64,000 nucleotides of DNA. Source: Fidelibacterota bacterium (GTDB taxonomy: Bacteria > Fidelibacterota > Marinisomatia > SCGC-AAA003-L08 > D37C17). Below are positions 25,402 through 51,685 of this stretch, one piece after another. Under the pieces are notes generated by a model, which worked only from the letters and a program-made list of their open reading frames with translations, was not told the origin of the DNA and did no database searches. The first letter of the stretch is position 1. Each line of letters begins with the position of its first letter. The DNA lies in assembly GCA_002717625.1 (NCBI GenBank), contig PBEF01000008.1, positions 1 to 64,000 on the forward strand, given 5' to 3'. The position numbers and the translations under genes were made by a program.

Positions 25402-26150
25402 TGAAAAGAGATAATAAAGAGTATTTTATATATGGATTAAATAATACAATATCTCTTTTATCCTCTGAAAAATATATAATTAATTCTATTGTAATTATGC
25501 GAGATAGTATCGCTTTATCAAATGAAATAATCTCATCATATATTAAAAGCAATGAATCTATTATTACAGTATTAAATAAAAAAGAATTCTTATCTAAATA
25601 TGATTATAAACATACACAAGGAATTATAGCTTTCTTCTCAGGAGAATTATTAAAAGATTTTAATAAGATTGAGTTTAAGAATAAAAATATTTGTTATGTT
25701 ATTATAGATCAAATTAATGATCCTCAAAATTTAGGCCAAATTATTAGGACGTGTGAATGTGCTGGTATTGATGGAATTATATTACCTAAACATGGAAGTG
25801 TTCATATAACTAATTCAGTATTACAGGTTAGTCAAGGTGCTTTTAATAATGTTAATTTATTTATGGTGACAAATATCAATGATACTATTAAGAAGTTAAA
25901 AAAAGATCATGGATTTTGGATTACTGGTATAGAAAATAGTATTAATAGTCAAAAATGGTATGAAATTGATTATAGTGATAGAATAGGAATTGTTTTTGGA
26001 AGTGAGGGTAAAGGGATTCGTAGATTAGTAAAAGAATCTTGTGATTTCTTAGCAACAATACCAATGAAAGGCTCTACAAATTCACTTAATGTATCTGCAA
26101 CTATTAGTGCTATATTATTTGAAAGACAGAGACAAATTGATTCTAAATGA
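25401..26150 (+). CDS. rlmB: TrmH/SpoU-family RNA 2'-O-methyltransferase, RlmB-like
   Basis: A 249-residue protein with an N-terminal substrate-binding region and the SpoU knot domain: motif 1 IIDQINDPQNLGQIIRTCEC, motif 2 GIVFGSEGKGIRRLVKESCD and motif 3 IPMKGSTNSLNVSATISAIL. This is the pattern of RlmB, which methylates G2251 of 23S rRNA, though other TrmH members are close. The ATG overlaps the previous stop by one base, and its 3' end overlaps the convergent pilD by 8 bp. Confidence 0.85.
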   Translation: MKRDNKEYFIYGLNNTISLLSSEKYIINSIVIMRDSIALSNEIISSYIKSNESIITVLNKKEFLSKYDYKHTQGIIAFFSGELLKDFNKIEFKNKNICYVIIDQINDPQNLGQIIRTCECAGIDGIILPKHGSVHITNSVLQVSQGAFNNVNLFMVTNINDTIKKLKKDHGFWITGIENSINSQKWYEIDYSDRIGIVFGSEGKGIRRLVKESCDFLATIPMKGSTNSLNVSATISAILFERQRQIDSK

Positions 26151-26883
26151 ATGTATTTAATTTTATTGGGTAAACTAATATAGCTGTTATTGATAAAAAA
26201 GTTCCAAATGGAAGAGCCCTTTTATTATCATATCCCTTTATTAATGATAGTATACACCAAAATATTAATGCCAAAAGAGCAGATAAAAATATAACTAAAA
26301 ATATTCTTAAATCTCCAAGCCAATAACCTAGAATTAATACTAGTTGAATATCTCCTAGTCCAAGTCCTTGTCTTTTTGTTAAAGCCCATGTTATCAAAAA
26401 AATAGCGGATAAATATCCTGTACCTATTATAAGCCCATCAATATGACTTAAAAAATCTTGAGTTAAGCATAAGCTAATTGTTATAAATATCAATGCTGTT
26501 ATTGATAATTGAATAGGAATAATAAAATATTTATAATCTATTATAGATATAGCTATTAGTATAGTAGAAATGATTGAAAAATATAATATTTCATTTAGTG
26601 TATTTAAATATATAGATGCAATTAACCAAATTATACCAATAACTAATTCAATTATAGGATATGATAAAGAAATTTTATTTTTACAATTTATACATTTCCC
26701 TTTTTGAAGACAGAATGATATAATAGGAATATTACGGTATAAAGGAATCTTATTCTGGCATAAAGGGCAAAACGAACGAGGTTTTATAATAGAGATGTTT
26801 TTTGGAACTCTATATATTATAACATTAATAAAACTTCCAATTATTAAGCCTAATATAAAATATGGTATATTTATAATATACAT
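26143..26883 (-). CDS. pilD: Prepilin peptidase / N-methyltransferase
   Basis: A 246-residue membrane protein that cuts the leader from prepilins and methylates the new N-terminus. It shows the tetracysteine motif (CPLCQNKIPLY and GKCINCKNKI) and the two catalytic Asp motifs (AISIIDYKYFIIP and LGLGDIQLVLILGYWLGDLR). Several hydrophobic helices span it. It is the last gene of the pilus operon, 4 bp after pilC. Confidence 0.95.
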   Translation of the reverse strand: MYIINIPYFILGLIIGSFINVIIYRVPKNISIIKPRSFCPLCQNKIPLYRNIPIISFCLQKGKCINCKNKISLSYPIIELVIGIIWLIASIYLNTLNEILYFSIISTILIAISIIDYKYFIIPIQLSITALIFITISLCLTQDFLSHIDGLIIGTGYLSAIFLITWALTKRQGLGLGDIQLVLILGYWLGDLRIFLVIFLSALLALIFWCILSLIKGYDNKRALPFGTFLSITAILVYPIKLNTFI

Positions 26884-26887
26884 ATAG

Positions 26888-28129
26888 TTAGTTAGCTATT
26901 GCAGCACCAACTTGGAATATTGGTAAATATGTAACAATAATAACACCTCCAATAACAATACCAACTAGTATGATAAGTAGAGGTTCAATTAATGATGTTA
27001 AACGATCGACTGATGCGTTGACTTGTTTTGTATAGAAATCTGATGCTTTTAATGATAAATTATCTATTTCTCCTGTTTCTTCACCTGTTGAAAATAATTG
27101 AATCATTATAGGTGGGAATACACCTGTTATTTTTAATGATTCAGATATTGAAACTCCATTTTCAATACTTTTTGTAGCGTTTTTAACCGCTATTTCATAT
27201 ACTCTATTATTGACTACTCTTATAACAAGTTCCATTGCATCCATAACAGATACTCCTGAACTAATTAAAATACCAAAAGTTTTACTAAATTTACTTAATA
27301 TATTTTGTTTAATAATAGAACCAAATATTGGAACATTTAATAAAATTCTATCTTTAAGTAATCTTCCTGTATCGGTTAAAGTGAAAATCCAAATAGATAT
27401 TAATCCCAAGAATAGCATCACCATAACATTGAAAAAATTGTTTTGAAACCATACGGACATATTTACAAAAAGAACTGTATAATAAGGTAACTCAGAACCA
27501 AGTTGATCATATACATTCTTAAATTTTGGAATAAGGAATGTAAACATTACAGTGATTACAACAAATAAAAATACAATAATAAAAACAGGGTAATACATAG
27601 CAGATTTAACTTTTCTTTGAGTGTCTTCAATTTTTTCTAAATAGATTGAGAGTTCTTCAAGAGTTTCAGATAGTTTACCACTAACCTCTCCTGCTTTTAC
27701 AAGTGAAATATATAAGCTAGAAAACACTCCAGGATGCCTTTCTAATGCATTAGAAAGTAGTAATCCTTTTTTTACATCATCAGCAATTTTCAATAGGACT
27801 TTTTTAAACTTTTTATTTTTTTCTTCTGTACTTAAAAAATAAAGCGCTCTTTCAATAGTTAGTCCTGCTGAAAACATTGTTGATAGCTGCCTAGTAAAGA
27901 AAACTAGTACATTTAGAGGAACTTTATTCTTCATTTCCTCAATAGACATAGATAATCTATCTAAAAAGGGTTTAATAAAATCAAATGAAGAATCTCTCTC
28001 AGTTAATTTGATTACAGCTGTTCCATCTTTTTGGAGTTTTTCTAGTGCTTCATTATAATTTTCAGCTGAAATATTTCCAGTTTCTCTAGAACCTTTTTCA
28101 GTTCTAATAATATAACTGAATTCAGCCAT
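26888..28129 (-). CDS. pilC: Type IV pilus inner-membrane platform protein PilC
   Basis: A 413-residue protein with two T2SS F domains. It contains FTRQLSTMFSAGLTIERALY and GILISSGVSVMDAMELVIRV, each followed by a long membrane helix pair, and ends in a hydrophobic helix before FQVGAAIAN. It couples PilB and PilT to pilin assembly. The coding region abuts pilB with no gap. Confidence 0.95.
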   Translation of the reverse strand: MAEFSYIIRTEKGSRETGNISAENYNEALEKLQKDGTAVIKLTERDSSFDFIKPFLDRLSMSIEEMKNKVPLNVLVFFTRQLSTMFSAGLTIERALYFLSTEEKNKKFKKVLLKIADDVKKGLLLSNALERHPGVFSSLYISLVKAGEVSGKLSETLEELSIYLEKIEDTQRKVKSAMYYPVFIIVFLFVVITVMFTFLIPKFKNVYDQLGSELPYYTVLFVNMSVWFQNNFFNVMVMLFLGLISIWIFTLTDTGRLLKDRILLNVPIFGSIIKQNILSKFSKTFGILISSGVSVMDAMELVIRVVNNRVYEIAVKNATKSIENGVSISESLKITGVFPPIMIQLFSTGEETGEIDNLSLKASDFYTKQVNASVDRLTSLIEPLLIILVGIVIGGVIIVTYLPIFQVGAAIAN

Positions 28130-29851
28130 TTAGATATCCTCGACTGTAGCTCTTAGCACTTCATCTATTGTCGAAATCCCTGTTTTAACCTTTTCAATTC
28201 CAGCATCTCTAAGAGATGTCATTCCATTATTAACAGCTGATTTTTTGATTTCATTTTGACTTGATCCATCATATATAAGTTGTCTGATTTCATTATTAAC
28301 TTCAAGAATTTCATGTATTGCAGTTCTACCTTTGTAACCTGTTTGATGATTATCAGTTGTTGGTTTTCCTCTGAAAAATTTCATTGAGGATGTATCTTGG
28401 GAAGATAAATTTATTCTAGATAATTCTTCAGATGTTGGGGTATATTCTTCTTTCGCATTTTCATCAATTGTTCTTACAAGTCTTTGAGCCATAATTAAAT
28501 TTAAAGATGAACCTAATAGGAAAGGAGCTATCCCTAAGTCTAACAATCTTGTAATAGTCGAAGGGGCATCATTAGCATGGACAGTACTGAATACTAGGTG
28601 ACCTGTTAATGAAAATTTTACAGCAATATCTGCTGTTTCTTTATCTCTAATCTCTCCAATTAATAGGACATCAGGATCTTGTCTTAATATTGATCTTAAA
28701 GATGCAGAAAAATTAAGGCCAATATCATCATGCATTTGCACTTGATTAATCCCAGGAATTTGATATTCTACAGGGTCTTCAACTGTAGTAATATTTACAC
28801 TTTCATTCATTATTTCCATTAATGAAGCATAAAGAGTTGTTGATTTACCGCTACCTGTAGGTCCTGATATAATAACCATACCATAAGGTTGATTAATCCA
28901 TTTTCTAAATATTTTAAGCTTTTTATCTGGGAAACCAAGATTTTGAAGTGTTAGAGTTTTATTTCCACTACCTAATAAACGTAAAACTATTTTTTCTCCA
29001 TGTACTGTAGGTAATATTGATACCCTTACATCAATATCTCTTTCTTTTGTTTTAATTTTCATTCTTCCATCTTGAGGAAGACGGTGTTCGGCAATATTTA
29101 ATTTTGATAATATTTTTATTCTTGCAACAATACCATTTAGTGAATTTGATGGAGGAGACATGATTTTCACAAGAACTCCATCAATTCTAATTCTAACATT
29201 AACTTCTTCTCTACCTGGTTCAATATGAATATCTGTTGAACCTTCTTTAATAGCTTCCATAAGAATTAAGTTTACTAATTTAACAAAAGGAGCATCTTCT
29301 GCAGAGACCTCTTCAGTTCCTAAATCTAATTCATCTGATTCTTCTTCATCACCTCTTACAATACTTATATTTGAAATTGCAGATTCTACCTCATCGCTTT
29401 TTTTAATTTTTCCATATAATATATCTAAAGCTTTATCAATATCTGATTTACTTGAAATAAGTATTTCAGGGTTTGAATTTGTTAGTTTTTTTACTGCATC
29501 TAATGTTGATATATCTTCAGGGTCTTCCATAACAACAACTATAGAATGTTCTGATTTACTTACAGCTATAATTCTTTTTTCTTTTGCAAAGTCTTCAGAA
29601 AGTAAAGCTGTTACTTCTAAATTTGCCTTTAATATCTCTTCTACATCTACAACTCTATGACCCATCTGTTGAGAATAAGCATTAATTAAATCAGTTTCAC
29701 TAACAAAGCCTAATTTTAGAAGAATTGGACCTAATTTTTCATTAGTAGTTTTTTGTTCAGATAGAGCCCTTTCTAGATTCTCTTGTGTTATTGCTTTATT
29801 ATAAACAAGTATATCTCCAATTCTTTGAAATTGTGGATTGAAATTTGACAT
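28130..29851 (-). CDS. pilB: Type IV pilus assembly ATPase PilB, lacking the zinc cysteines
   Basis: A 573-residue cytosolic hexameric ATPase for pilus extension. An N-terminal MshEN-like domain (residues 5-160) is followed by the motor: Walker A GPTGSGKST at 330-338, Asp box VEDPVEY, Walker B DPDVLLIGEIRDKETAD and His box GHLVFSTVHAND. The usual CxxC...CxxC insert before TGYKGRT (about residues 455-505) has no cysteine at all. I chose the ATG at 29851 because AGGAGA at 29861-29866 is 9 bases away; an upstream TTG at 29857 is too close. Confidence 0.95.
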   Translation of the reverse strand: MSNFNPQFQRIGDILVYNKAITQENLERALSEQKTTNEKLGPILLKLGFVSETDLINAYSQQMGHRVVDVEEILKANLEVTALLSEDFAKEKRIIAVSKSEHSIVVVMEDPEDISTLDAVKKLTNSNPEILISSKSDIDKALDILYGKIKKSDEVESAISNISIVRGDEEESDELDLGTEEVSAEDAPFVKLVNLILMEAIKEGSTDIHIEPGREEVNVRIRIDGVLVKIMSPPSNSLNGIVARIKILSKLNIAEHRLPQDGRMKIKTKERDIDVRVSILPTVHGEKIVLRLLGSGNKTLTLQNLGFPDKKLKIFRKWINQPYGMVIISGPTGSGKSTTLYASLMEIMNESVNITTVEDPVEYQIPGINQVQMHDDIGLNFSASLRSILRQDPDVLLIGEIRDKETADIAVKFSLTGHLVFSTVHANDAPSTITRLLDLGIAPFLLGSSLNLIMAQRLVRTIDENAKEEYTPTSEELSRINLSSQDTSSMKFFRGKPTTDNHQTGYKGRTAIHEILEVNNEIRQLIYDGSSQNEIKKSAVNNGMTSLRDAGIEKVKTGISTIDEVLRATVEDI

Positions 29852-29860
29852 TTGCAATTA

Positions 29861-29880: not shown

Positions 29881-32800
29881 TTATGGGTTATCATTTTGCT
29901 CTGTTTTGAAAATCTCATATGTTAGAGTACTGCTACTAACTTGTAATGGGTCAAGTAAGAAAATAGTGATTTGAGATGGCCATGTATCATATGATTCAGG
30001 GTCATTACCATCTCCAATATTTAATACTTCACTATAGGATGCTGTCCAAACAACACTTCCATTTCCATTTGTATTACCAAAAGCGGGATCATCTGCTAAA
30101 TCATTTGGACCATTAATTTGTGTACCAAATACATTAGGATCATCTTGAGCTGCATCTGGAATCCAAACACCTCCATTGGCTACACAATCTGTACATGTTT
30201 GGAATGGAGATTCATCATCACATATACCATCTCCTGATCCAGATCCTGTACCTCCAATTATATCAAAACTATTACAACAGCCTACAAAACCGTCTAAATC
30301 GGTATCTGCTGGATCGCAAGCACTCCAGAATGTTGCTCCTGTTGCTACAGCTTGAAGCGTACCATTATTCACAGGATATTGGTAGTAATCTGTTAGCCCT
30401 GATGATATGGTTACCTCTACAGTATCATCAAGATCATTAAGTCCAACATCACCAATAAGTGAAAAATCAACAAATCCAGGAGTCACTGCGGGATCTGAAA
30501 GAACACAGTTGTAGCATGGTAATACTAATCCATCACCACCATGACTATCTCTTCCATCAATAATTAATTTTTGACCATCAGCATCATAACATAATGCCTT
30601 AATTACAGTATTTTCAAATACACTAGCTGTTCCAAAACGTACAGAGGACCAAGCAATACCAGGGTAACTAATTCCATCTGGACTTTCCATTCCAGTTTCT
30701 GCAGCACCTATAATTGATCCAGGATGTTGTACTTCTCTCCATAGTGGAGTCCCTAATATTTCAAGACCATCTCCAGGTGATGGATTATTTAATCCAGGAG
30801 TATTAGAACTAAATCCTTCACTATTCCATACGTATACCAAACTATCAACTTCAATCACTTGTCCTGTTTCATCAAGACCTCCCCATTTAACACTATCACC
30901 AAAGGTATAGACGCTATCAGCACTCCAAGGATTAGCTATTCCTTCAACCCAAATAAATACATTTGTTGAATCAGCTACAGGATTAGAATAAAAATCCCAC
31001 AAGCTAACAGATAAAGGAAGCTCATATTGACCACCCCCAATAGGTGATATCTCAACATAACTATAGTTTATTTCACCAAAAGCTGGAGCTCCTGTTACAA
31101 CTGTTACAGGAACAGATTCAAGCGCTGCAATTCCAAAAGTACTATAAGTGCTTTCATCTATATCACTACAGCTAACTCCTAAGTCTGCAGGATAGAGTTC
31201 AGCTCTAATTGGTACAGACCCTGGTTGACCTCCAGAATTAAGCGTTACTGTTGCTTGCCCATTAGATGATTCAGCACATTCTACTAAATAATCTTCATCT
31301 TGATCATTTAGATATACCCCAAATGGAGCTGTTTCTAATATTCTAAAATGAACAAGGAAAGGCTCGGTTACAAGGTTATCAGAACCATCTTTGATTTCCA
31401 TTGTTAATTGTGTTGCTTCAATACCACCACCACCTTGAACTGTGATTTCATTAGGAGTAGGTGGCACTAGCTGTATTGAGGTAGCATCTGTAGATGTTAG
31501 ATTAATATAAATTGTATCTGCAAGATTATATGATGGAGCTGTTCCAATAATTTGAGTTAAGCCTACATCAGTTTCCATATTAAACGTAGCTACAGCTTGT
31601 CCGTTTTCATCTGTGAATTTATATGGCTCAATACTTCCATTTGGTACAAGGTTTCCATCTTCATCTAGTGTTACACTCTCAAATTCAACAAGTGTAAATG
31701 CTGGTACTGGATTTTCAGTTGTATCAATAACTGTTGCTGTTATTTGCGTTGTAACAATCTCATTATTATCACCAGTAGGTAACTCATAATACTGTGAAGT
31801 TAATGTTAATGAAGCTTGACAATCAGGGCACTCTGGTAAATCCTCAACAAGATTAATTGCTACATCATTTGTTAAAAGAGGATCAGTATAAGGTGCTATT
31901 ACGTTAATATTAATAACTGTTGGCTCTTCATCATTTAGTGAAATGTTTGGGTAAGTACAAAATACAGTTCTTGCTCCATTAAATATTACTCCTGGAATTT
32001 GTTGTGTTGTATCAGCATAAGCAGATAGAGTTCCATATTGTTGATCTTCTGTAGCAATAGAATACTCAACAGGAACATTCGCTAATGAAACACCATCTTC
32101 ATTAGTAACAATAGTTGTAATAGTATCACAATAAACAACATCTAGAGAATCCATAAGAATTGTTTCAGGAAAAGGATAAGATGTCATAGCTATTGCTGAC
32201 AATGAAGGAGGAATACTTATAACTACAAGAGTATCTAGTAATGTTTCATCAGTACCATCTCCAAGAATGTTAGCAGGATTTTCAGGATCGGGTATATATG
32301 CTCTTATTAAATCTACTGAAGGGAGATCTGCAAAACCTCTATCAGAATAAAAATTACATGCTTTTGGTTCATTATTTAAAGAGTCAAGAGCTGTAGGAGC
32401 AGGACAATGACAACCAGTTGTATCTGCTTCTCCACCAGTTCCTCCTATGCATGTTACTCCTGTTGCATGGTATAATTCTCCATTTAGAGCACCTGCTTGA
32501 AAACTTCCAAAATCTATACCTTCAAATCCTAAATCAATAAGAGTTTGTTGTTTGATGATATCTTCACCTAATCCATTTCCAATAATTTCATAATGTACTT
32601 GAGAACCTGCTATTATTACTCCTGCTGTATCTATGGTTTGATGTTCGAAAGAACCATCTGAAGTTCCATCTGCAGAATAATATTGTAAGATATGAAGTTT
32701 ATCTCTTAATCCAGAAGGCTCATTAGGATCAGGAAGTGCTATAACATTTGATTCTGAAAGTACTTCAAAAATATTAATATCATATTCAATATTAGGAGCA

Positions 32801-35800
32801 CCTTCAACTAGATATCCCCATGTATAGTTTTCTTGTATATCATCAGTAACATAAACAGAAATACCTGTGTTGATTATTTCTCCTCCACATGTTAATAAGT
32901 CCCCTTCAGTTAATGTAAAAAGGACTTTTATTCTTCCGTTTGAACTGGTATAAGCTCTTCCTGAGCTATCTATATTCCATGATTCGCCACTACCATCTTG
33001 GGAATTCCCGCTAACACCTGAAATAGAGCCTATAATATCATTGTCATCAGTACAATTACTTGGTGTAAGTTGAAAATAGATAGGAACACCACCGATAGGG
33101 AGCCCAAAGTTATTTTGAACATTGACTATAAGGGTATCTTGGTGTACTATATTAACATTATTATCAGTAGTTACAGATTGGATTAAAGCAACATCTAAAT
33201 CAGCAACTTGTCCAAGATTTATAGCAGATTGATATGCAATGTTAACATCTACTGTATTAGACTGAAGCATTCCTCCAGAAGGGAGGTTGACATTAGCACT
33301 AAGAGTTATATCTTCAATTCCTGTTGTAGATTCTGAAAGCGTAATGTTTTGTAATTTATTTTGGGCAACACCATCTTGGCCCGAAACAATACCATTAAAT
33401 TCAAAAGTTCCATATGAAGAAGAATTTGAAAAGTTAACAGGGATATTACTGATAGGATTTCCAAGTCCATCTCTAACGCTTGCTATTAAATCAATGTCTC
33501 CTGCAAGGGCTTGAGTACTATCTGCTTCTTCACCTTCATCTGAAGTTGAAGGAATATCATTGATTATTAATTGTATAGGATCAACTGTAAGTGATAAGGT
33601 ACTAATTGATGTATAATTAAACGCAATTTGGTTGCCCACTTGTAAAGTTGTCATATCGCTTACAATAATTTCTTCATCTGCCGGGTTATTAATCGATACA
33701 GTAATATCTATATCAGAAATTATTGATGCATCATCAGGTTGGATGTTTTGTAGCGTATTTGATGCAACTCCATTAGAGCCTGAGATTACATTGCTATTTG
33801 CAAATATTCCATAACTAGATGTATTAGTAAAATTAACAGGAACTCCTTCTAGAGGATTACCGCTAGCATCTTTAACCGTTGCAATTATAACAACACTTCC
33901 TCCAGTTCCTTCATTTGTGTCAGAATCTTCATCTGGATTAGTTTCTTCATCAGTTCCTTCATTTGTATTTGTTGCATCTAAAATCAAAGGGTTAGTCTCC
34001 ATTAATAGATTAACAGCAGCTATATTGTTAATATTTTGAGCAAATAAGTTTCCAGCTACTAAAGTTTTAGTATCACTTGCAATGATACTGTTATCTTGTG
34101 GATTAAGTACTTCAACAGTAATTGGGATACTTTCTAGGATTGATAAATTTGGAGTATCTATATTTTGCAATGTATTTGCTGACACTCCATCAGTTTGAGA
34201 TTCTACATTATTTGTTAGAAATGTACCATGAGATGATGTTGTAGAAAATATAACAGGAACACCCGCAACAGGATTACCATTAGATCCTCGTACAGTTGCT
34301 TGCATTGTTATGCTATTTGCTTCTCCACCTAAAGTTAGAGTATTTGTACTTAATGTTAAATCTAATTCATCAATACTGTTTATGTTTTGAGCAAATAAAT
34401 CTCCAACCATTAATGTTTTAGTATCACTTACAATAGTACTATTATCTTGTGGATTTAATACTTTAACAATAATTGGTATATTTTCCATAATTGAAGTATT
34501 AGGAGTATCAATATTTTGGATTGTATTTGAAACTCTTCCATCAATTCCTGACTCTATATTATTTGTTAAAAATGTTCCATATGGTGAAGTAGTTGAAAAA
34601 CTAACAGGAATACCAGGTATAGGATCTCCATCAGCACCTCTAACAGTAGCTTGCATTGTCATACTATTTGTTGAACCATCTAAGGTTAAAGAATTTGCAC
34701 TTAAAAGTAAATCAATTGTATCAATACTATTAACATTAAGTGCAAATAAATTTCCAGCATATAATGTAGTTGATACACTTACAATGGTAGAACCATTTTC
34801 AGGATTATTAATTTGTGCCGTAATTGGAATAACATTTAAGATATCATAATCATCAGGATCAATATTTTGTAATGTGTTTAATGCTTTTCCATCAGGCCCA
34901 GATAGTAAATTATCTTGTGAACCAAATACGTAGTTTGATGTAGTTGAAAAATTAACAGGAATCCCCTCAAGAGGGTTTCCATTTTCATCGCTAACAGTCA
35001 CTTCCATTGCCATGCTATTTGTTGTTCCATCTAAAACTAAAATTTCAGATTCTAGAGATAAAGTTAGCTGATCAATATCATTGATGTTCTTTGAGAATAA
35101 ATTTCCTACTTGTAATGTTTCTGTATCTGTTGCAACGGGATTATTGTTTTCAGGATTAAGAACAGAAACTGAAATTTGTATATCTGTCATAATTGAAGGA
35201 TTTGGAGTATCTATGTTCTGTAGTGTATTTTGAACTATTCCATTACTTCCAGATACAACATTGTTACTTGTAAATACTCCATAGTTAGATTCATTTAAAA
35301 AATTAACAGGAACACCTTCAACAGGATTACCGTTTGAATCACTAACTATTGCTTGCAATGTGATACTATTTGATATACCATCTAGAATTAAAGTATTATC
35401 ATCTGTATTTAATAAGAGGTTAATGGAATTAATATCATTAAAATTATATGAAAATTGATCTCCTACAAATACTGTTTGGTCATCATTGAAAAGAGTTGTT
35501 GTATTATCAGATGGGTCAAAAACCTTTGCTGTAATAGTCATAGACTCTAAAATAGATTGATCTGGCGTTACAATATTTTGTAATACGTTTGTAGAAACAC
35601 CATCATTTCCTGATAAAACTTCTGTATTTGTAAATGTTCCATAGTTGGAGTTATTAATAAAGCTAACAGGGACATTTGGTACAGGATTACCATTAGCATC
35701 TCTAACAGTTGCTTTAAATTCAAAATTATTTGTTGATTGTACATTTGCTGAATCACTTTCTAATCCTAGAATAAGTGATTCTGAACCCACAACAATTAAG

Positions 35801-38580
35801 TCAATTTCATTAATTGAACTAATTGTAAAAGCTATTTGATTTCCTACTTCTAATACCTTCATATCTTCTTGGATGGGTTCACCGTTTTCAGGATTTAATA
35901 CATATGCCATTACAGGTATAGATTCTATAACAGAAGAGTTGGAAAGATTGCTAAAATTAATTGTATTAGTTACGATCCCATTATTTCCGGATAATAAAAT
36001 AGAATTATCTCCAAATGTTCCATAGTTGGAACCATTTACAAAAGTGACAGGAATCCCAGAAACAGGGTTTCCAATCGCATCTCTAACAGTTCCTGTTATT
36101 GTTACACTAGCACCATCTACGTCTAAAACAAGAGGGCTATTTGACAACACCAAATCTAAAGATTTAATATCATTCATATTTATAGCAAATAAATCTCCTA
36201 CTTCAAGAGTTTTCATATCTGTTGCTATAATGCTATTATCGTCAGGATTTATAATAGATACTGTTATAGGAATTTGCTGCATAATTGAATAATTCTCAAT
36301 ATTTGCTGTTATATTTTGCAATTCATTAGAAACAGTACCATTAGTACCTGATAATATGTCATTATCTGCAAAAATTCCATAGCTAGAATTATTTGCAAAA
36401 TTAACAGGTATTCCTTCAATAGGGCTTCCATTCACATCCTTTACAGATACTTGCATTGATATACTGTTTGTTGTTCCATCTAGAATGAGTACATCCATTT
36501 CTAATGATAAATCTAATGAATGAATATTGTTTTTTTCTATTGCGAATAGATCTCCAACCTTTAAAGTTTCAGTATCTTGTGCAACTATACTTTGATTTTC
36601 AGAGTTGGTTACATAAACAGTAATAGGTATATTCTCCAGAATTGATTCATTAGGTGTATCTATATTTTGGAATATATTAGCAGCTATTCCATCTACTCCA
36701 GATAAAACAATTGGTAATGCAAATGTACCGTAATTTGATGTCGTTTGGAAAGAAACAGGAATACCTTCTACAGGATTTCCGCTGGGATCTTTAACCATTG
36801 CACGCATGGCAACACTATTAGATGTTCCATCTAATACTAAAGTGTTGTCATCAATACCATCTAAGGTTAAATCTATAGAAGCAACATCAGCTCCATAGAT
36901 TGCAAATAAATCTCCTATTTGCAATGTTTGACTAGATTCAAATAATGCTACTCCTGATTCATTTTCAGGATTTTTTATTTTTGCTGTAATAACTACAGGC
37001 TCCATTATTGAAGGATCTTCTACTTGTATGTTTTGCAATACATTTGTAGAAATACCGTCTGTTCCTGATAAAATATTATTATTTGGGAATACACCATTAG
37101 TAGGAGGTGTAGCTGAAAACTCTACAGGAACACCACTAATCCCATTACCAAGATTATCTCTTATGATAGCTCTCATTGTCACACTATTATTATTTGATCC
37201 GTCTTCAAGAATAAGAGGGTTAGTGTCTAAGTATAAATTTAAAGAGCTTATATTTGCAGAATTGATTGCAAATGAATTTCCAATATATACAGTCTCTGTA
37301 ATTGAGTATAAAGCAACCCCATCATTATTTTCAGAACATGGAATACTTGCTGTGATAGATAATGGTGCAAGTACAGATGGATTTTGGCTTTCAATATCCT
37401 GTATAATATGCATCGTTTTACCATCAGCACCTGTGACTTGTTCTCCATTAGGTGTCCCATCAATAAAGTCTGCACTTGGACTTGTTGAAGATAATTCTAA
37501 TTCAACTATGATTCCTTCAATAATGTTATTTTGAGGGTCTAATACTTTTGTTGTAATTGTTAAGTCTTCATCGCTATCTAAAATATATTCAGTATTAAAA
37601 CCAATGAATTTTATTTCACCAATATCATCACATAGTTCTTCAGGTGTTTGCGCTCCTTCTGTAATGTCTACTTCAAGATTTGATAAAGATTGTAGTATAC
37701 TATTTCCTGTTAGATTTTCATTCTCAATTGTTATAGCAAGGATAATAGGCTCTACAAATACGCCCATTTCTAAATCTTCTTGTAAGTCTTGCGTCTGAAT
37801 AACTTGTATAGTAAATGTAGCTTCTCCAATATTATCTAAATTAGAAGATGTTATTACTGGATCAGCTGAGATATAATTGTAAGCTTCAGGGATTTGAATA
37901 TTAACTTCTATTCCAGGAACTCCAATGCCATCTTGATCTGTAACTATAACTTTTACTTGTTTATTTTCAGGAGTATCAAGATTAAAAGATAATGTATTGT
38001 TAGGATTATTATTGTCCAGTATAGTATCTAAATTAACAACCTTTTTATATACAGATTGTACTTCAATAGTCATTGGATCTGATGAAAATTGTTCTAAGCT
38101 TGTATTGTAATAGCATACTACATCAAATGATCCATTAATTCCTTTATCAGCCCATTGGAATAAAGCTGTTCCATCATATCCTGTTGTTGCAACATTGCTC
38201 GCAGATGCTGATGTTGGATTCACTAATTGTGGAGAATCAAGTGGATTTCCTGCATAACCACTTATATTTTCACAGTATATACTTGCTCCACTTACAGGCA
38301 TACTCTCTGATTCTAAGATTTGTCCTGAATCATCTATGGGAAAACTTGTAAGTTCAGCAGTGATTAAGGTATATTCTTGAATAGTTCCATCATTGTAATC
38401 AATCCAATCATCATTACATGCAGAAGTATTGCATACAGATTTAGTTAGTGATAAAGTATATGTAAGTGTTTCATCTGTTAAATCTTGTATTATTAAATCT
38501 TGATCTTCGCATGAAAGATTGAATATTAGAAATATTCCTGTTAATAAAAGGTATAATTTTAAGTTAAAGCTATTTGCCAT
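29881..38580 (-). CDS. Giant Ig-like-repeat (invasin-type) surface lipoprotein in the pilus operon
   Basis: A 2899-residue protein. The N-terminus is a signal peptide ending IFLIFNLSCEDQ, with a probable lipidated Cys (the -3 residue is not ideal). Residues of about 310-1785 hold about twelve tandem units near 118 residues each, with the bacterial Ig-like (Big_1/invasin) pattern VRDxxGNPVxGIPVxF, SNYGTF, SGxDGxxxNxLQNI, then PITV.VxNPEN and a spacer ending in VG. The C-terminal third has further Ig-like units (NFGLPIGGVPIYFQL, NEDGVSLANVPVEYSI) and ends in a Cys-containing part (residues about 2700-2800). I chose the ATG at 38580: AGGAG at 38588-38592 lies 7 bases upstream, while an ATG at 38598 has it inside the gene. 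It lies 22 bp before pilB and just after pilQ. The role (adhesion, pilus-linked display) is inferred. Confidence 0.85.
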   Translation of the reverse strand: MANSFNLKLYLLLTGIFLIFNLSCEDQDLIIQDLTDETLTYTLSLTKSVCNTSACNDDWIDYNDGTIQEYTLITAELTSFPIDDSGQILESESMPVSGASIYCENISGYAGNPLDSPQLVNPTSASASNVATTGYDGTALFQWADKGINGSFDVVCYYNTSLEQFSSDPMTIEVQSVYKKVVNLDTILDNNNPNNTLSFNLDTPENKQVKVIVTDQDGIGVPGIEVNIQIPEAYNYISADPVITSSNLDNIGEATFTIQVIQTQDLQEDLEMGVFVEPIILAITIENENLTGNSILQSLSNLEVDITEGAQTPEELCDDIGEIKFIGFNTEYILDSDEDLTITTKVLDPQNNIIEGIIVELELSSTSPSADFIDGTPNGEQVTGADGKTMHIIQDIESQNPSVLAPLSITASIPCSENNDGVALYSITETVYIGNSFAINSANISSLNLYLDTNPLILEDGSNNNSVTMRAIIRDNLGNGISGVPVEFSATPPTNGVFPNNNILSGTDGISTNVLQNIQVEDPSIMEPVVITAKIKNPENESGVALFESSQTLQIGDLFAIYGADVASIDLTLDGIDDNTLVLDGTSNSVAMRAMVKDPSGNPVEGIPVSFQTTSNYGTFALPIVLSGVDGIAANIFQNIDTPNESILENIPITVYVTNSENQSIVAQDTETLKVGDLFAIEKNNIHSLDLSLEMDVLILDGTTNSISMQVSVKDVNGSPIEGIPVNFANNSSYGIFADNDILSGTNGTVSNELQNITANIENYSIMQQIPITVSIINPDDNSIIATDMKTLEVGDLFAINMNDIKSLDLVLSNSPLVLDVDGASVTITGTVRDAIGNPVSGIPVTFVNGSNYGTFGDNSILLSGNNGIVTNTINFSNLSNSSVIESIPVMAYVLNPENGEPIQEDMKVLEVGNQIAFTISSINEIDLIVVGSESLILGLESDSANVQSTNNFEFKATVRDANGNPVPNVPVSFINNSNYGTFTNTEVLSGNDGVSTNVLQNIVTPDQSILESMTITAKVFDPSDNTTTLFNDDQTVFVGDQFSYNFNDINSINLLLNTDDNTLILDGISNSITLQAIVSDSNGNPVEGVPVNFLNESNYGVFTSNNVVSGSNGIVQNTLQNIDTPNPSIMTDIQISVSVLNPENNNPVATDTETLQVGNLFSKNINDIDQLTLSLESEILVLDGTTNSMAMEVTVSDENGNPLEGIPVNFSTTSNYVFGSQDNLLSGPDGKALNTLQNIDPDDYDILNVIPITAQINNPENGSTIVSVSTTLYAGNLFALNVNSIDTIDLLLSANSLTLDGSTNSMTMQATVRGADGDPIPGIPVSFSTTSPYGTFLTNNIESGIDGRVSNTIQNIDTPNTSIMENIPIIVKVLNPQDNSTIVSDTKTLMVGDLFAQNINSIDELDLTLSTNTLTLGGEANSITMQATVRGSNGNPVAGVPVIFSTTSSHGTFLTNNVESQTDGVSANTLQNIDTPNLSILESIPITVEVLNPQDNSIIASDTKTLVAGNLFAQNINNIAAVNLLMETNPLILDATNTNEGTDEETNPDEDSDTNEGTGGSVVIIATVKDASGNPLEGVPVNFTNTSSYGIFANSNVISGSNGVASNTLQNIQPDDASIISDIDITVSINNPADEEIIVSDMTTLQVGNQIAFNYTSISTLSLTVDPIQLIINDIPSTSDEGEEADSTQALAGDIDLIASVRDGLGNPISNIPVNFSNSSSYGTFEFNGIVSGQDGVAQNKLQNITLSESTTGIEDITLSANVNLPSGGMLQSNTVDVNIAYQSAINLGQVADLDVALIQSVTTDNNVNIVHQDTLIVNVQNNFGLPIGGVPIYFQLTPSNCTDDNDIIGSISGVSGNSQDGSGESWNIDSSGRAYTSSNGRIKVLFTLTEGDLLTCGGEIINTGISVYVTDDIQENYTWGYLVEGAPNIEYDINIFEVLSESNVIALPDPNEPSGLRDKLHILQYYSADGTSDGSFEHQTIDTAGVIIAGSQVHYEIIGNGLGEDIIKQQTLIDLGFEGIDFGSFQAGALNGELYHATGVTCIGGTGGEADTTGCHCPAPTALDSLNNEPKACNFYSDRGFADLPSVDLIRAYIPDPENPANILGDGTDETLLDTLVVISIPPSLSAIAMTSYPFPETILMDSLDVVYCDTITTIVTNEDGVSLANVPVEYSIATEDQQYGTLSAYADTTQQIPGVIFNGARTVFCTYPNISLNDEEPTVININVIAPYTDPLLTNDVAINLVEDLPECPDCQASLTLTSQYYELPTGDNNEIVTTQITATVIDTTENPVPAFTLVEFESVTLDEDGNLVPNGSIEPYKFTDENGQAVATFNMETDVGLTQIIGTAPSYNLADTIYINLTSTDATSIQLVPPTPNEITVQGGGGIEATQLTMEIKDGSDNLVTEPFLVHFRILETAPFGVYLNDQDEDYLVECAESSNGQATVTLNSGGQPGSVPIRAELYPADLGVSCSDIDESTYSTFGIAALESVPVTVVTGAPAFGEINYSYVEISPIGGGQYELPLSVSLWDFYSNPVADSTNVFIWVEGIANPWSADSVYTFGDSVKWGGLDETGQVIEVDSLVYVWNSEGFSSNTPGLNNPSPGDGLEILGTPLWREVQHPGSIIGAAETGMESPDGISYPGIAWSSVRFGTASVFENTVIKALCYDADGQKLIIDGRDSHGGDGLVLPCYNCVLSDPAVTPGFVDFSLIGDVGLNDLDDTVEVTISSGLTDYYQYPVNNGTLQAVATGATFWSACDPADTDLDGFVGCCNSFDIIGGTGSGSGDGICDDESPFQTCTDCVANGGVWIPDAAQDDPNVFGTQINGPNDLADDPAFGNTNGNGSVVWTASYSEVLNIGDGNDPESYDTWPSQITIFLLDPLQVSSSTLTYEIFKTEQNDNP
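33225..37640 (-). repeat. Tandem array of about twelve 350-420 bp coding repeats
   Basis: Repeat units in the giant lipoprotein begin (minus strand, codons for D/N-L-F-A or N-Q-I-A) near 37640, 37279, 36912, 36552, 36194, 35841, 35460, 35103, 34752, 34401, 34050 and 33633. Most periods are 351-367 bp; three successive ones (35103 to 34050) are exactly 351 bp. Two units are longer because of acidic Asp/Glu/Thr-rich insertions at about 33899-33977 and 33508-33555. Confidence 0.85.
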
Positions 38581-38587
38581 AAATAAT

Positions 38588-38592
38588 CTCCT
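38588..38592 (-). promoter_or_regulatory. Shine-Dalgarno site deciding the start of the giant repeat protein
   Basis: AGGAG on the minus strand, 7 bases before the ATG at 38580. The upstream in-frame ATG at 38598 has no such site and would place this one inside the coding region. Confidence 0.75.
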
Positions 38593-38611
38593 AAACATCT
38601 ATAGTTTAATT

Positions 38612-40018
38612 TTAATATTGTCTTTTTTTAGCTCCCATTTCAAGTGTTCCTTCAGCATCTTCATGATAATATTGTTTATCTATTCCAGAATAATTATCTT
38701 TAACAATTGTTGGTTTAACTTGAATGATTAAATCTGTTTTTTGTTGTTCTTCTGTTGTATGTGTGAAAATTTTCTTTCCTATCCATGGTATTCTCCAAAG
38801 AAGTGGAAATTTGCTTTCAATATCAATTGTATTGGTTGTTACTAAGCCTGCAATCACTATTTGCTCACCATCTCTAACTCTTATAGTTGTAGTTGACTTT
38901 CTTTTCTTAGTCCAAGGGTATCCTAAAGCTGTCCAATCTACAATAGAACTTACTTCTGGAGTTATTTCAGTTGTAATATATCCATCTGAATTCACTGTAG
39001 GTAAAATTTTCAATCGTATTCCTACAACTTCTTTTAATACTTGCATGTTACCACTTGCTCCACCACTTTGAGCTAAATAGGGAATTTCATCTACCATATC
39101 TATTCTAGCTTCATGTCCATTTAAAGTGACTACTTGTGAGTTTGTTAATATATCTGCTTTATTATCTTTTAATAGCATATCAAGGGTCACATCAAAAGCT
39201 GTTAATTGTCTTCCAAATGTATTAATAGTTGGATCTATGGTCCAAGGCATGCTCTCAGGAAGAATACCCAGCGCTGTTCCAAGCTGATCTAAAGATAATA
39301 CAGCATTTCCACTAGCATCAGTTTCTTCAACCATTTCATATCCAGGTAATAAAGTTTGAGTATTCCCATTAGATAAAAGGGCATTATGAGATTCAGCAAA
39401 AATAATGGATGTTCTAGCTAGTTTTTCCCAATCAACACCAAATTCTTGTTTGTTACTTAGAGAAACTTCAATTAATCTTGCTTCTAGCATAATTTGAATT
39501 GCAGGAACATCAATATCATTAACGATAGCTTCTATTTCATTAATCTTTTTAGGACTAGCACTAACAAGTAGATTATTACCTGTATTATCAATTGTGATTG
39601 ATTCAGTAATATTTTTTAATAGGGTAGCAACTTGGCTTGCATTTGCATATTCTAAATTAATAATATGTGGTTTTACACCAATATCTGAGTTTAATTTTGA
39701 TTTATTTGCAACTAGTATTGAATTTCCTATGATTTCATAACTTAAGCCAGATGCCCTTATAATTAAATTGATTGCTTGAGAAATTGGAACTTCATCTAGG
39801 TGAATTGTTAATTTCTCTTGAGTGTCAACATTAGGTCCTGTAACTATATTGTAGTCACTCTGTTTTGCAAGGATTGATAAAATAGTTGGAAGATGGGTGT
39901 CCTCAGCATGTATGGAAACAATAGGTTCATCTATAAGTGTATTTTCATCTTGTGCAATTAATATGCTTCCCGCAAATATAATAGTAAAAAATATAGTGTA
40001 TAGTTTTTTGTTATTCAT
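38612..40018 (-). CDS. pilQ: Type IV pilus secretin PilQ (short form)
   Basis: A 468-residue outer-membrane secretin. In order: a signal peptide (1-22), an STN/N0 domain (VSIHAEDTHLPTILSILAKQ), one N1-type domain (INLEYANASQVATLLKNITE, then LLVSASPKKINEIEAIVNDI), and the secretin core with IMLEARLIEVSLSNKQEFGVDW, the lip region VPYLAQSGG-like DEIPYLAQSGG, and IRVRDGEQIVIAGL then PLLWRIPWIGKKIF. It lacks the N-terminal AMIN domains of proteobacterial PilQ (usually over 600 residues). It lies 37 bp after the PilP-like gene. A GGAG precedes its ATG. Confidence 0.93.
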   Translation of the reverse strand: MNNKKLYTIFFTIIFAGSILIAQDENTLIDEPIVSIHAEDTHLPTILSILAKQSDYNIVTGPNVDTQEKLTIHLDEVPISQAINLIIRASGLSYEIIGNSILVANKSKLNSDIGVKPHIINLEYANASQVATLLKNITESITIDNTGNNLLVSASPKKINEIEAIVNDIDVPAIQIMLEARLIEVSLSNKQEFGVDWEKLARTSIIFAESHNALLSNGNTQTLLPGYEMVEETDASGNAVLSLDQLGTALGILPESMPWTIDPTINTFGRQLTAFDVTLDMLLKDNKADILTNSQVVTLNGHEARIDMVDEIPYLAQSGGASGNMQVLKEVVGIRLKILPTVNSDGYITTEITPEVSSIVDWTALGYPWTKKRKSTTTIRVRDGEQIVIAGLVTTNTIDIESKFPLLWRIPWIGKKIFTHTTEEQQKTDLIIQVKPTIVKDNYSGIDKQYYHEDAEGTLEMGAKKRQY

Positions 40019-40055: not shown

Positions 40056-40529
40056 TTAATAAATTTCAAGGATAATATTTTCCTTATCCTTTTTTATATG
40101 TACCTTGTTTGATGATATGTCTGATACTATCCCTCCTCCAATCGAATCTCCTATAGCTACTACATATCTTTTTGAGCGGTAAGTACATATTGTTTCAAGA
40201 CTTCCATCTTTATCTGTTATTATTCCGCTACATTCAATACCTTTCACACCTCTTGCAGATATATCTCCATCTAATACAACTACTCTAGTTAAATCTAATG
40301 GATTCTCTTTCGGTTTAAACTTTAAATTCTGCCTTATATTTAAGTTCTCTTCTAAGCTGGAAACCATATTCTGTAATTCTTTATCTGTACCGACTTCTTC
40401 ATTAATAAACTTATCATAAGCTTTATCAATTTCTGTATGTTTATTAAATTGTCCCCATGTATTCCACAATAGTGCTGATATGCAACACAATACGATCATA
40501 TTCCATATAAATTTTTCTCTTAAATTCAT
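40056..40529 (-). CDS. PilP-like pilus alignment protein
   Basis: A 157-residue protein in the place of pilP. It has an N-terminal membrane helix (residues 8-26) instead of a lipobox. Its C-terminal half (about 75-157) looks like the homology region of PilP/GspC: VKGIECSGIITDKDGSLETI, YVVAIGDSIGGGIVSDISSN. PilP proteins link PilN-PilO to the secretin. The ATG overlaps the pilO stop by one base. The sequence is divergent, so the symbol is withheld. Confidence 0.7.
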   Translation of the reverse strand: MNLREKFIWNMIVLCCISALLWNTWGQFNKHTEIDKAYDKFINEEVGTDKELQNMVSSLEENLNIRQNLKFKPKENPLDLTRVVVLDGDISARGVKGIECSGIITDKDGSLETICTYRSKRYVVAIGDSIGGGIVSDISSNKVHIKKDKENIILEIY

Positions 40530-41128
40530 TATTTTTTTGCTTTTTTCTTATTTAGCGTTATAGTATTAATTGATAAATTTGTTATAATATCATTAACTTC
40601 AGAAATATCATCAACAGCTCCTCTAATTTTTTCTACACCATTTCGAATTTGAATTTCTTCAACAGAAATCAACCTATTATTTCCCTCAAGTGCTGTAATA
40701 AATTTCCCGAATTGCTCATAATCACATTTAATTTCCATAGAGTAGGGAATATAAGTAGTGACTCCTTTTTTATTTTTACTTCCGGGTTCAATCTGTAGTA
40801 ACTTAATATCTAGTTTTTCTAAAACATCAGTTAATTCTTTTAAAAATATCATATTAGCTTCTTTGTTTTTAGCATCATTATTATTTATTGCAAGATTACT
40901 TTCAAATAGTTGATATACACTGTTTAGTTTTTCAGATAGAATTTGTGCTGTTATGAATTTTTCATTTACAATTTTTTGTTCTTGCTCCAGTTCTTTAATT
41001 AATTCGTATTTTTCATCATATAGATATGAATATAGCATTGAATTTGCAAATACAAATAGTATTGCAAATAAAATAAGCACAGTATTTCTATTTAATAAGT
41101 CACTTAATCTAAAATTCTTAAAATTCAT
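40529..41128 (-). CDS. pilO: PilO-like inner-membrane alignment protein
   Basis: A 199-residue bitopic protein: one membrane helix (about 17-36), a coiled-coil stretch (KELEQEQKIVNEKFITAQIL), and a ferredoxin-like periplasmic domain with MEIKCDYEQFGKFITALEGN and NRLISVEEIQI, the PilO pattern. It partners PilN. Its start overlaps pilN by one base. Identity rests on shape, motif and order. Confidence 0.85.
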   Translation of the reverse strand: MNFKNFRLSDLLNRNTVLILFAILFVFANSMLYSYLYDEKYELIKELEQEQKIVNEKFITAQILSEKLNSVYQLFESNLAINNNDAKNKEANMIFLKELTDVLEKLDIKLLQIEPGSKNKKGVTTYIPYSMEIKCDYEQFGKFITALEGNNRLISVEEIQIRNGVEKIRGAVDDISEVNDIITNLSINTITLNKKKAKK

Positions 41129-41697
41129 TATTTTAACCTAGCTTGAATTGTAAATGATAGGACCTCATTACCTTTAGCATTGCTTTTTTCCATCGATTCA
41201 AACTTTATATCCTTAAAATCTTTATTGAATTCTTTATTTTCATTGATTCTTATCATGAAATCTTCTACTATATCAAAATCTTTTTGGGTTTTATCTACAC
41301 TTGATATTGCAGATATTTTTAATCTTTTATGATCATATTCAAAGCCTGTAATAGACATCCTATCTGGTGTGATTTCAGATAATGCGATTAATTTTGGAGC
41401 CCAGAACATACGTTTGCTCTCTAACTTATTTAAAGTTTTAATATCTGCTTTAGATAAATTAATCTTCCCTTCTTTTTTTAATTTTTCTGTATCGTTAATG
41501 ATTTGTTTAATAGTGTTTTTTCTATTCTCAATAATATGATCCATCCTATTATTTATAAATCCAAACCAACCAATATATCCTAAAAACAAAATGCATATTA
41601 AAATAAAAACAAACCATCTCTTTCTTTCTTCTTTTTGATGCTCAAGCTGAGCTTTGCTTATAGTTTGGTTTAGATTAATGCGAATTAATTTATTCAA
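41128..41697 (-). CDS. pilN: PilN-like inner-membrane alignment protein
   Basis: A 189-residue bitopic protein with a short cytoplasmic start RINLNQTISK, close to the INLLP motif by which PilN binds PilM, a membrane helix (about 27-48), coiled coil, and a periplasmic domain (WAPKLIALSEITPDRMSITG) typical of the PilN/GspL family. It overlaps pilM by 8 bp and pilO by 1 bp. Confidence 0.87.
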   Translation of the reverse strand: MNKLIRINLNQTISKAQLEHQKEERKRWFVFILICILFLGYIGWFGFINNRMDHIIENRKNTIKQIINDTEKLKKEGKINLSKADIKTLNKLESKRMFWAPKLIALSEITPDRMSITGFEYDHKRLKISAISSVDKTQKDFDIVEDFMIRINENKEFNKDFKDIKFESMEKSNAKGNEVLSFTIQARLK

Positions 41698-42784
41698 GGT
41701 CTAATCCTCTCAAAGCAAGGCCTAATGCTGTAGTATATTGATTAGGGTTTTTTATTTCTATGTCATTACTTATTTTTTGAAAAGGATTAAAAGTTGAAAC
41801 TTTTACATTAAGTGATGAAGAAATAAAATCATTGATTCCAGGAATTTCTGCAGATCCTCCAGTAACATAAAAATGATTAAAAAATGCCTGATTGTTATTT
41901 TTCATATAAAATCTTAATGTCCTTTTTATATCTTCGCATAGTTCACTATAACATGTCCTTTTTTCAACAGATATTCCAAAATTAGTTGTTTGATTTTCTG
42001 AACTTGGTTCTTTTGGATTGTCTTCATCATCATTGGAAGCATTATCTTCTGCAAAAACATTTACTCCTTTTTCACTTTTAAGATTTTCAGCAGTTTTATA
42101 ATCTACTCCTAATTCTCTTATGATTTCATTAGTAAAATAATTTCCAGATGTTTCAATATTCCTTGCAAATAGAGGAAAATTTTGCCCCCAAACTATTAAG
42201 GTCGTATTAGAATTTCCAATATTTAAAATAACATCAGCTCCTTCAGGAGTTAATCCATAATTATATTTATACATATTTGCAATAGCGATTGGATCTGTAT
42301 CAAAAGTGTCGGCTCTAAACCCAGCATTTTTTATCATTTTAGCATGGTCTTTGATTATATTTTTGGTTGTAGATACTAGAAGAAGATTGATTTTATCTAT
42401 TTCTGTTGTATTAGAACCAAGGTGGTGATAATCAATAATAGCATCTGTTCCATCTAGAGGAATATGTTTTTTTGCCTCTAATTCTAAAGATACTGATAAT
42501 TCTTCATCTGGCATATCGAGTGTACTGATTTGCCTAACATCTACAAGTGTGCCAGATATAGAAGATGTTATTTTACGTACTTTTCTTGGATTAATACCTA
42601 ATTTTTTAGATAGATCTTGCACAGATGCTTCTAATTGAGATCTAGATATTTTTTCTAAATCAAATTTATTAATATCTTCAAAAATATGAAGGTTACCGAT
42701 TTTTTTAACGGATACCTCATCTTTAGTTAAAGATAATTCAACTATCTTTGTGCTGTATTTTCCTATGTCTATTCCTGTACTCAT
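41690..42784 (-). CDS. pilM: Actin-like pilus assembly protein PilM
   Basis: A 364-residue cytoplasmic actin-like ATPase with STGIDIGKYSTKIVELSLTK (phosphate-1), LSVSLELEAKKHIPLD, DVILNIGNSNTTLIVWGQNF (phosphate-2) and FYVTGGSAEIPGINDFI (adenosine motif). It is close in size to the usual 350. An acidic insertion near residues 240-265 (NASNDDEDNPKEPSSENQ) is unusual. It heads the pilMNOPQ block. Confidence 0.93.
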   Translation of the reverse strand: MSTGIDIGKYSTKIVELSLTKDEVSVKKIGNLHIFEDINKFDLEKISRSQLEASVQDLSKKLGINPRKVRKITSSISGTLVDVRQISTLDMPDEELSVSLELEAKKHIPLDGTDAIIDYHHLGSNTTEIDKINLLLVSTTKNIIKDHAKMIKNAGFRADTFDTDPIAIANMYKYNYGLTPEGADVILNIGNSNTTLIVWGQNFPLFARNIETSGNYFTNEIIRELGVDYKTAENLKSEKGVNVFAEDNASNDDEDNPKEPSSENQTTNFGISVEKRTCYSELCEDIKRTLRFYMKNNNQAFFNHFYVTGGSAEIPGINDFISSSLNVKVSTFNPFQKISNDIEIKNPNQYTTALGLALRGLDLE

Positions 42785-45080: not shown

Positions 45081-45884
45081 TTAAATATTAGTATTTTTAC
45101 CTGCTCCACGTACTCTTTGTCTTACAAAACATGAAGGGCAATAAGCTCTTTTTTTATAAGTTCTGTAAGTATAAAATTCATCTGAAATACTATTTTCATC
45201 AATTTTATTTTGAATTTGAATTGTAATTTCAATATCATATGTACACTCTTCTAAAGGATTTCTTATTCTATCATCTACTATATTATGAAAAAAAGTAGTT
45301 TCAGTATTTCCTGGATCCATTTGCTTAATTTTAAAGTCATGTACAACATACTGTGTATTTAGATTTTGGTCTCCATCTTGAAATTTTTTACCTGGATTAA
45401 AGGATCCTTGTGCTGCTAATGCATTCCACTCTCTGTTACTTGCTTCATAATGTCCTTTGCTATTTTTTTTATGATTTCGCAGCATGTATTTATTATATAG
45501 CTCACCTGTAATATCAGTATTATTCTCTCTTATTACAACACCGCCCTTATCATTCATTTCAACAGTGATTTTTCTTTGTTTTAATGCTCTTTCATCTCTC
45601 CCTTGATTAATATATTTATCATTAAATTTCCATATTGTATATTTAGGAGGATTGACACCCGATCTTGTTATAGTTGAGTCGCTTCTTGAAACAATGGAGG
45701 CAATAAAGTCGGCAGCATCATGACAATAAACATCTATTGAGGCTTCCATTGTATCATTGAAATAGCGGGTTTGAGCTGCATTAAAGACAGAAATCATTGC
45801 CCCTGTTCCAATAGCTGATATGATAATGGTAATTACCATTTCAATAAATGTAAACCCTTTAATATAATATCTATTGCTTTGCAT
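45081..45884 (-). CDS. PilW-like minor pilin
   Basis: A 267-residue prepilin-like protein. The 10-residue leader MQSNRYYIKG is followed by FTFIEMVITIIISAIGTGAM, a class III/type IVa cleavage and hydrophobic helix pattern with Glu at mature position 5. A C-terminal CPSC motif is near the end. It overlaps the pilV-like gene by one base. Minor pilins of this kind prime pilus assembly. Confidence 0.85.
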   Translation of the reverse strand: MQSNRYYIKGFTFIEMVITIIISAIGTGAMISVFNAAQTRYFNDTMEASIDVYCHDAADFIASIVSRSDSTITRSGVNPPKYTIWKFNDKYINQGRDERALKQRKITVEMNDKGGVVIRENNTDITGELYNKYMLRNHKKNSKGHYEASNREWNALAAQGSFNPGKKFQDGDQNLNTQYVVHDFKIKQMDPGNTETTFFHNIVDDRIRNPLEECTYDIEITIQIQNKIDENSISDEFYTYRTYKKRAYCPSCFVRQRVRGAGKNTNI

Positions 45885-46399: not shown

Positions 46400-46403
46400 T
46401 CTA

Positions 46404-51670: not shown

Positions 51671-51685
51671 TGATTCTTTATTAAA

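Follow-up and report, generated by a model that had tools for sequence, protein, structure and literature searches.

The type IV pilus operon and its giant gene

The stretch of DNA analysed here (hereafter the window) covers 64,000 nucleotides of contig PBEF01000008.1 from the Fidelibacterota bacterium assembly GCA_002717625.1, and carries on its minus strand a type IV pilus locus that runs from 47942 down to 26143 in the order pilA, pilT, two minor pilins, a PilX-like gene, pilM, N, O, P, Q, a giant gene, pilB, pilC and pilD. The genes ahead of the giant one are pilA (47502-47942; open reading frame list and family matches), pilT (46404-47465; family match), two minor-pilin-like genes (45884-46423 and 45081-45884), the PilX-like gene of 763 amino acids (aa) (42787-45078), pilM (41690-42784; PilM_2), pilN (41128-41697), pilO (40529-41128), pilP (40056-40529) and the secretin gene pilQ (38612-40018; TIGR02515, 3e-54); no second PilQ-like secretin was found in the window's genome. 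Behind it lie the assembly ATPase gene pilB (28130-29851; TIGR02538, 2e-180), which starts with TTG at 29857 in the open reading frame list and has an ATG with an AGGAG site at 29851, the platform protein gene pilC (26888-28129; GspF/PilC family) and the prepilin peptidase gene pilD (26143-26883; named from position and sequence, with no NCBIfam match). PilN, PilO, PilP and PilD were named by size, position and conservation because their own family matches are weak or absent; the type IV pilus gene set is otherwise recognised by the TIGR02515 secretin, TIGR02538, T2SSE in both ATPases, GspF/PilC, PilM_2 and a pilin with the TIGR02532 N-methylation signal.

The giant gene occupies 29881-38580 (minus strand) and encodes an Ig-repeat lipoprotein of 2899 aa, the longest copy found among the sampled members of its family. 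Its longest open reading frame, 29881-38598, gives a 2905-aa form on which the residue numbering used below is based; since the ATG at 38580 has an AGGAG ribosome-binding site in front of it in our reading of the sequence, the product is likely to be the 2899-aa form. The gene is separated from pilQ by 31 bp (to ATG 38580) and from the pilB ATG at 29851 by 29 bp (from the stop codon), and counting from the alternative starts further upstream reduces these gaps to 13 and 23 bp. A sequence-only reading of this DNA had placed a giant Ig-repeat gene between pilQ and pilB on the same strand, and its coordinates and gene order are confirmed, including the end at 38580. On the minus strand no terminator-like site was found at either junction of the giant gene, the sole one in the stretch being weak and lying inside the giant gene, and promoter-like matches in the giant-gene stretch occur at chance number. 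Both results are compatible with a single transcript that would join the pil genes and the giant gene.

Anatomy of the encoded lipoprotein

The protein begins with a signal peptide and lipobox (38509-38580, minus strand, as are all parts given here) that ends FNLS/CEDQ, the codon of the predicted lipidated cysteine (residue 30) lying at 38509-38511. Then follow an N-terminal Ig-like region (residues 31-442; 37273-38508), a run of eleven Ig repeats of Big_1 type, each about 117-139 residues long (residues 443-1790; 33229-37272; Pfam and repeat profile), a more diverged region that appears Ig-like from its motif spacing (residues 1791-2366; 31501-33228), and a C-terminal module (residues 2367-2905; 29884-31500). 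Big_1 (PF02369) is matched with an E-value of 9.3e-87 over 12 stretches, a repeat profile counts 14 domains, and inspection by eye gives about 19-20 Ig-like units. The eleven consecutive repeats are 28-68% identical in pairwise comparison, and tandem copies are present at the DNA level at 34022-34756. Because the gene is a single intact open reading frame and its repeats have diverged to this degree, an artefact of repeat assembly is unlikely.

Both the lipoprotein signal and the Ig-like repeats had been noticed before, and both are borne out by the lipobox and the Big_1 matches. The description of the protein as invasin-like holds for its Big_1 repeats, but neither a beta-barrel nor a lectin-like cap is recognised: no barrel family was found in the giant protein by Pfam, and the lipobox signal peptide leads directly into the Ig-like region where an N-terminal outer-membrane barrel would lie.

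The anatomy is constant throughout the family, consisting of a lipobox, usually a Cys-Asp-x-Arg-x-Pro start, a Big_1 run of variable length and the conserved C-terminal module. The latter spans about 370-620 residues across the family and has no Pfam name of its own; it is 40-60% identical in the order and beyond, whereas the N-terminal region reaches only 22-33% identity to relatives. In the window it is made up of the final 539 residues, and its V-x-GGGG-x-E-[SA]-T signature, N-P-V-x-D-S-T stretch and terminal beta domain are kept in relatives. The window copy has no Pfam match, and among 19 aligned modules nine match Big_1 and nine Invasin_D3, in each case weakly. The AlphaFold model of the module (mean pLDDT 77, pTM 0.56) is predicted to be all-beta save for a few short helices, and a fold search with this model returned generic tandem beta-sandwich proteins from the PDB, InvE of Yersinia included, with TM-scores to the query of at most 0.19. 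Neither the Pfam scans nor the fold search recognised a sugar- or protein-binding fold or a lectin-like cap in the module, and no sequence relatives were found in the PDB. The low-confidence model of a whole 999-aa orthologue (pLDDT 67, pTM 0.34) is likewise almost all-beta behind its signal helix and matched only generic beta-sandwich chains.

Conservation of the gene at the pilus locus

To read gene order in relatives, PilQ homologues were located in the nearest 60 genomes and their surroundings were inspected, and a second set was drawn from other families and classes of the phylum. Wherever pilQ and pilB lay on the same fragment they enclosed the Ig-lipoprotein gene; this was so for 22/22 genomes in the first set and 21/21 in the second, in all 43/43 other genomes with both flanks assembled, belonging to at least two classes of Neomarinimicrobiota. 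Distances to the flanking genes range from about -110 to +113 bp, the negative values mostly reflecting over-long open reading frame starts. A fragment from another family (G081) ends within a lipoprotein gene after pilQ, one that starts with the motif CDYRTPST. The sequence-only reading had proposed a check of gene order in SAR406-like genomes, with absence of the gene from all close relatives as the outcome that would speak for chance insertion; the gene was present at the locus in 43/43, and the SAR406-like origin also agrees with the names of the relatives, Neomarinimicrobiota or FCB group. As the same arrangement recurs in 43/43 genomes from separate assemblies, chance insertion of the giant gene is rejected. 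The wider suggestion that a repeat gene came into the pil locus by chance or by misassembly, for which no support was found, runs against this synteny as well as the intact frame and diverged repeats, and we regard its probability as negligible.

Joint occurrence was scored in 245 genomes (E <=0.001 for a profile of the C-terminal module, E <=1e-40 for PilQ). The module profile matched 92/245 genomes and PilQ 89/245, with 85 genomes carrying both, four PilQ only, seven the module only and 149 neither (Fisher P ~7e-52, a value uncorrected for relatedness). All four PilQ-only genomes are explained by contig ends: the beginning of the gene is visible in G001 and G152, and PilQ lies <=365 bases from the end of its contig in both G163 and G192. 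The seven module-only genomes include weak matches (G165, G203, G214 and G235). Six genomes of genus g5, from the window's own family, lack both PilQ and the module on the profile searches, a joint loss. The 12 loci recovered by a related-locus search with a narrower alignment all bear the name Neomarinimicrobiota or FCB group, but this search says little on other phyla because it missed most of the relatives that the profile had found. On gene order and joint occurrence, the type IV pilus operon of Neomarinimicrobiota has the Ig-stalk lipoprotein family as a regular member.

Further copies were seen in two relatives. One genome (L123, G026:C23) has, besides the usual copy, a second protein with the C-terminal module, which is 2261 aa long and encoded at a distance from the pil genes; in another (L135, G225:C331) an extra copy of 1070 aa follows pilD, and the usual copy before pilB is split into pieces.

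To our knowledge, known type IV pilus operons do not have an Ig-repeat lipoprotein as a regular member. Our literature search found no paper joining Marinimicrobia, type IV pili and Ig-like domains, and none on the giant gene, judged by title, in related searches. The parts are of known kinds (Big_1 repeats, a lipobox, a pilus operon), and their constant combination is, as far as we know, undescribed. The Ig-repeat lipoprotein is here as constant as the secretin itself across a phylum of uncultured bacteria that includes abundant marine plankton (SAR406).

Length, composition and the post-lipobox motif

Complete pil-locus copies in the sample are between 651 and 2905 aa long, and the median of 50 sampled open reading frames, fragments and extra copies included, is 938 aa. 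The congener G002 has a protein of 1393 aa whose C-terminal module is 60% identical to that of the window, and the giant size therefore reflects an expansion of the Ig array in the window's species within an older family. The 8.7-kb size to which the sequence-only reading drew attention is not the essential feature, given that the gene encodes only 651-2289 aa in relatives. Among the roles which that reading put forward as possible, an adhesin, a spacer or a pilus-linked fibre, a fixed periplasmic spacer is unlikely in view of a more than fourfold spread in length.

Lysine and arginine together make up 2.0% of the giant protein (family mean 3.6%). Their share is 13.8-18.9% for PilN, PilO and PilP of the window and 10.5-12.3% for two other exported proteins. 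In three window proteins that are probably extracellular and have dockerin-like C-termini, recognised by Pfam in two of them, it is 3.7-5.1%. As an indirect guide to location, the very low content of the giant protein resembles that of exported proteins and is unlike that of the periplasmic pilus proteins. An Ig domain is about 4 nm long, so about 20 of them would reach near 80 nm if extended, which would be too long for the periplasm and is likewise an indirect argument on location.

A lipobox is present in every family start that was read. By one rule applied to 31 members, the lipobox cysteine is followed by Asp in 28, by Arg at +4 in 22 and by Pro at +6 in 26, and the corresponding counts among 17 other lipoprotein candidates, a background drawn from sampled stretches rather than whole genomes, are 3, 0 and 0. 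The P value for Asp after Cys (7e-7) overstates the evidence because family members are related, and the window's own genus departs from Cys-Asp-x-Arg-x-Pro, having C-E-D instead. PulA also has Asp after Cys.

Relation to known surface proteins

InvL of Acinetobacter baumannii is a surface lipoprotein with Ig-like domains that depends on the type II secretion system (T2SS) (PMC9245377), and T2SS-dependent surface lipoproteins of this species need a motif right after the lipobox together with GspN (PMC12802150). InvL and PulA are both surface lipoproteins carried by a T2SS secretin for which the post-lipobox motif is required (PMC9245377, PMC12802150). The giant protein shares with InvL the invasin kind of Ig-like lipoprotein without a beta-barrel, the link to a secretin machine and a motif behind the lipobox (PMC9245377, PMC12802150). 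It differs in that InvL has 492 aa, a lectin-like cap and a T2SS with GspN, whereas the giant gene belongs to a type IV pilus operon and encodes a far longer, variable stalk. GspN (PF01203), needed by InvL and PulA, had no match in the window's genome (~90% complete), the controls E. coli and Caulobacter being matched. We use InvL as the closest working comparison, and not as evidence of membership. PulA offers a likeness in being N-terminally lipidated and reaching the surface through a secretin machine, but it is an enzyme without an Ig stalk and its system is the T2SS.

Invasin and intimin, of type V secretion, resemble the giant protein in their runs of Big_1/Invasin_D3 Ig domains and their distinct C-terminal part, whereas the latter has a lipobox and no N-terminal beta-barrel, and no lectin-like cap is recognised in it. 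PilY1 is likewise large, encoded alongside type IV pilus genes and a candidate adhesin. Its gene sits with the minor pilins, unlike the giant gene, and its PF05567 domain is absent from the giant protein, so that a PilY1 in disguise is rejected. The absence of a C-terminal type IX secretion (T9SS) sorting domain (NCBIfam) likewise rejects a T9SS cargo.

A candidate surface stalk and its alternatives

The explanation that we favour, and to which we give an even chance, is that of a lipid-anchored stalk on the cell surface, produced and exported along with the pilus machine, which cooperates with the pilus in attachment. The protein would be made together with the machine, lipidated at its N-terminus and shown on the outer surface; its export would depend on the pilus machine, PilQ being the sole PilQ-like secretin found in this genome, in a manner comparable to the dependence of InvL on the T2SS, and a stalk of few to about 20 Ig domains would carry the conserved C-terminal module and work with the pilus in attachment. 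The anatomy, the constant place in the operon, the presence and loss together with PilQ and the variable stalk length are seen in the genomes; we infer the surface location, the secretin-dependent export and the role in attachment. The family is thus a concrete candidate for the attachment of cells to particles or to other cells, and it prompts one to ask whether the secretin of a pilus, like that of the T2SS, can bring a lipoprotein to the surface. A more far-reaching proposal, which we put forward tentatively, is that the type IV pilus machine has a lipoprotein passenger of its own: phylum-wide, the apparatus would build pili and also display the conserved Ig-stalk lipoprotein through the same secretin. 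If true, pilus building and protein secretion would be joined in one operon.

The main rival to the surface stalk is a secretin-associated assembly factor, in which an outer-membrane lipoprotein would help PilQ to assemble or brace it in the manner of a pilotin or TsaP and would touch the machine through its C-terminal module. The place of the gene directly after pilQ, the lipobox, the constant presence where PilQ is present and the position of the C-terminal module as the best conserved part all fit such a structural role, but lengths between 651 and 2905 aa are hard to fit to a fixed envelope distance, which is the strongest counter-argument; moreover, the composition is unlike that of periplasmic pilus proteins and the Pfam scans found neither a TPR pilotin nor a LysM domain, and we hold this role to be rather unlikely. 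Alternatively, the lipoprotein could reach the surface by an unrelated export route and be merely co-expressed, its operon position serving the common regulation of two attachment devices. Secretin-independent routes for surface lipoproteins exist in related phyla, GspN was not found, and no contact between the giant protein and the pilus machine was seen here; however, a place between two core machine genes that is kept across classes, together with a loss that coincides with the loss of PilQ, is more than co-regulation needs, and a separate route seems to us unlikely.

A further possibility is that the protein takes the place of PilY1 as an adhesin at the pilus tip, either after release from the membrane or by extrusion together with the pilus. 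This reading arises because no convincing PilY1 was found in the phylum, only 4/245 genomes giving short partial matches and the window's genome none, but this absence is not firm since control genomes were also silent in the PilY1 search; the lipid anchor favours membrane attachment, and the locus has minor pilins and a PilX-like tip candidate, so that we consider such an adhesin very unlikely.

Dockerin genes and other neighbours

In the window's 1.49-Mb genome (G000), Dockerin_1 gives 83 matches, mostly one per open reading frame and C-terminal where read in the window, in which dockerin genes lie at 18902-19255 (minus strand) and at 48188-51670 and 57706-60612 (plus strand), with another recognised by eye at 60624-62882 (plus strand). 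Cohesin has a single match in this genome (G000:C5:15549-15887, within a 2707-aa frame), and dockerin looks like a genome-wide C-terminal tag. A tie between dockerin tagging and PilQ was rejected, as the genomes of genus g5 without PilQ have 8-67 dockerin matches each. At G000:C2:902-6053 two dockerin frames (355 and 434 aa) are each present in two copies of equal score, separated by about 3.8 kb, either by tandem duplication or as an assembly effect.

Beside pilA, at 48188-53356 on the plus strand, a gingipain-type peptidase C25 gene is followed by a Mur-ligase-like (CapB-like) gene and by CapC (PF14102). Genes of similar size follow pilC/pilD on the same strand at four loci of other families (L055, L119, L127 and L129), those of L055 having recognisable CapB/CapC-like starts. 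Elsewhere in the window's genome, a trio of frames of 379, 89 and 458 aa lies next to or near a Big_1-matching frame on both G000:C7 (L136; 1053 aa) and G000:C10 (L137; 1500 aa), and may represent a duplicated unit.
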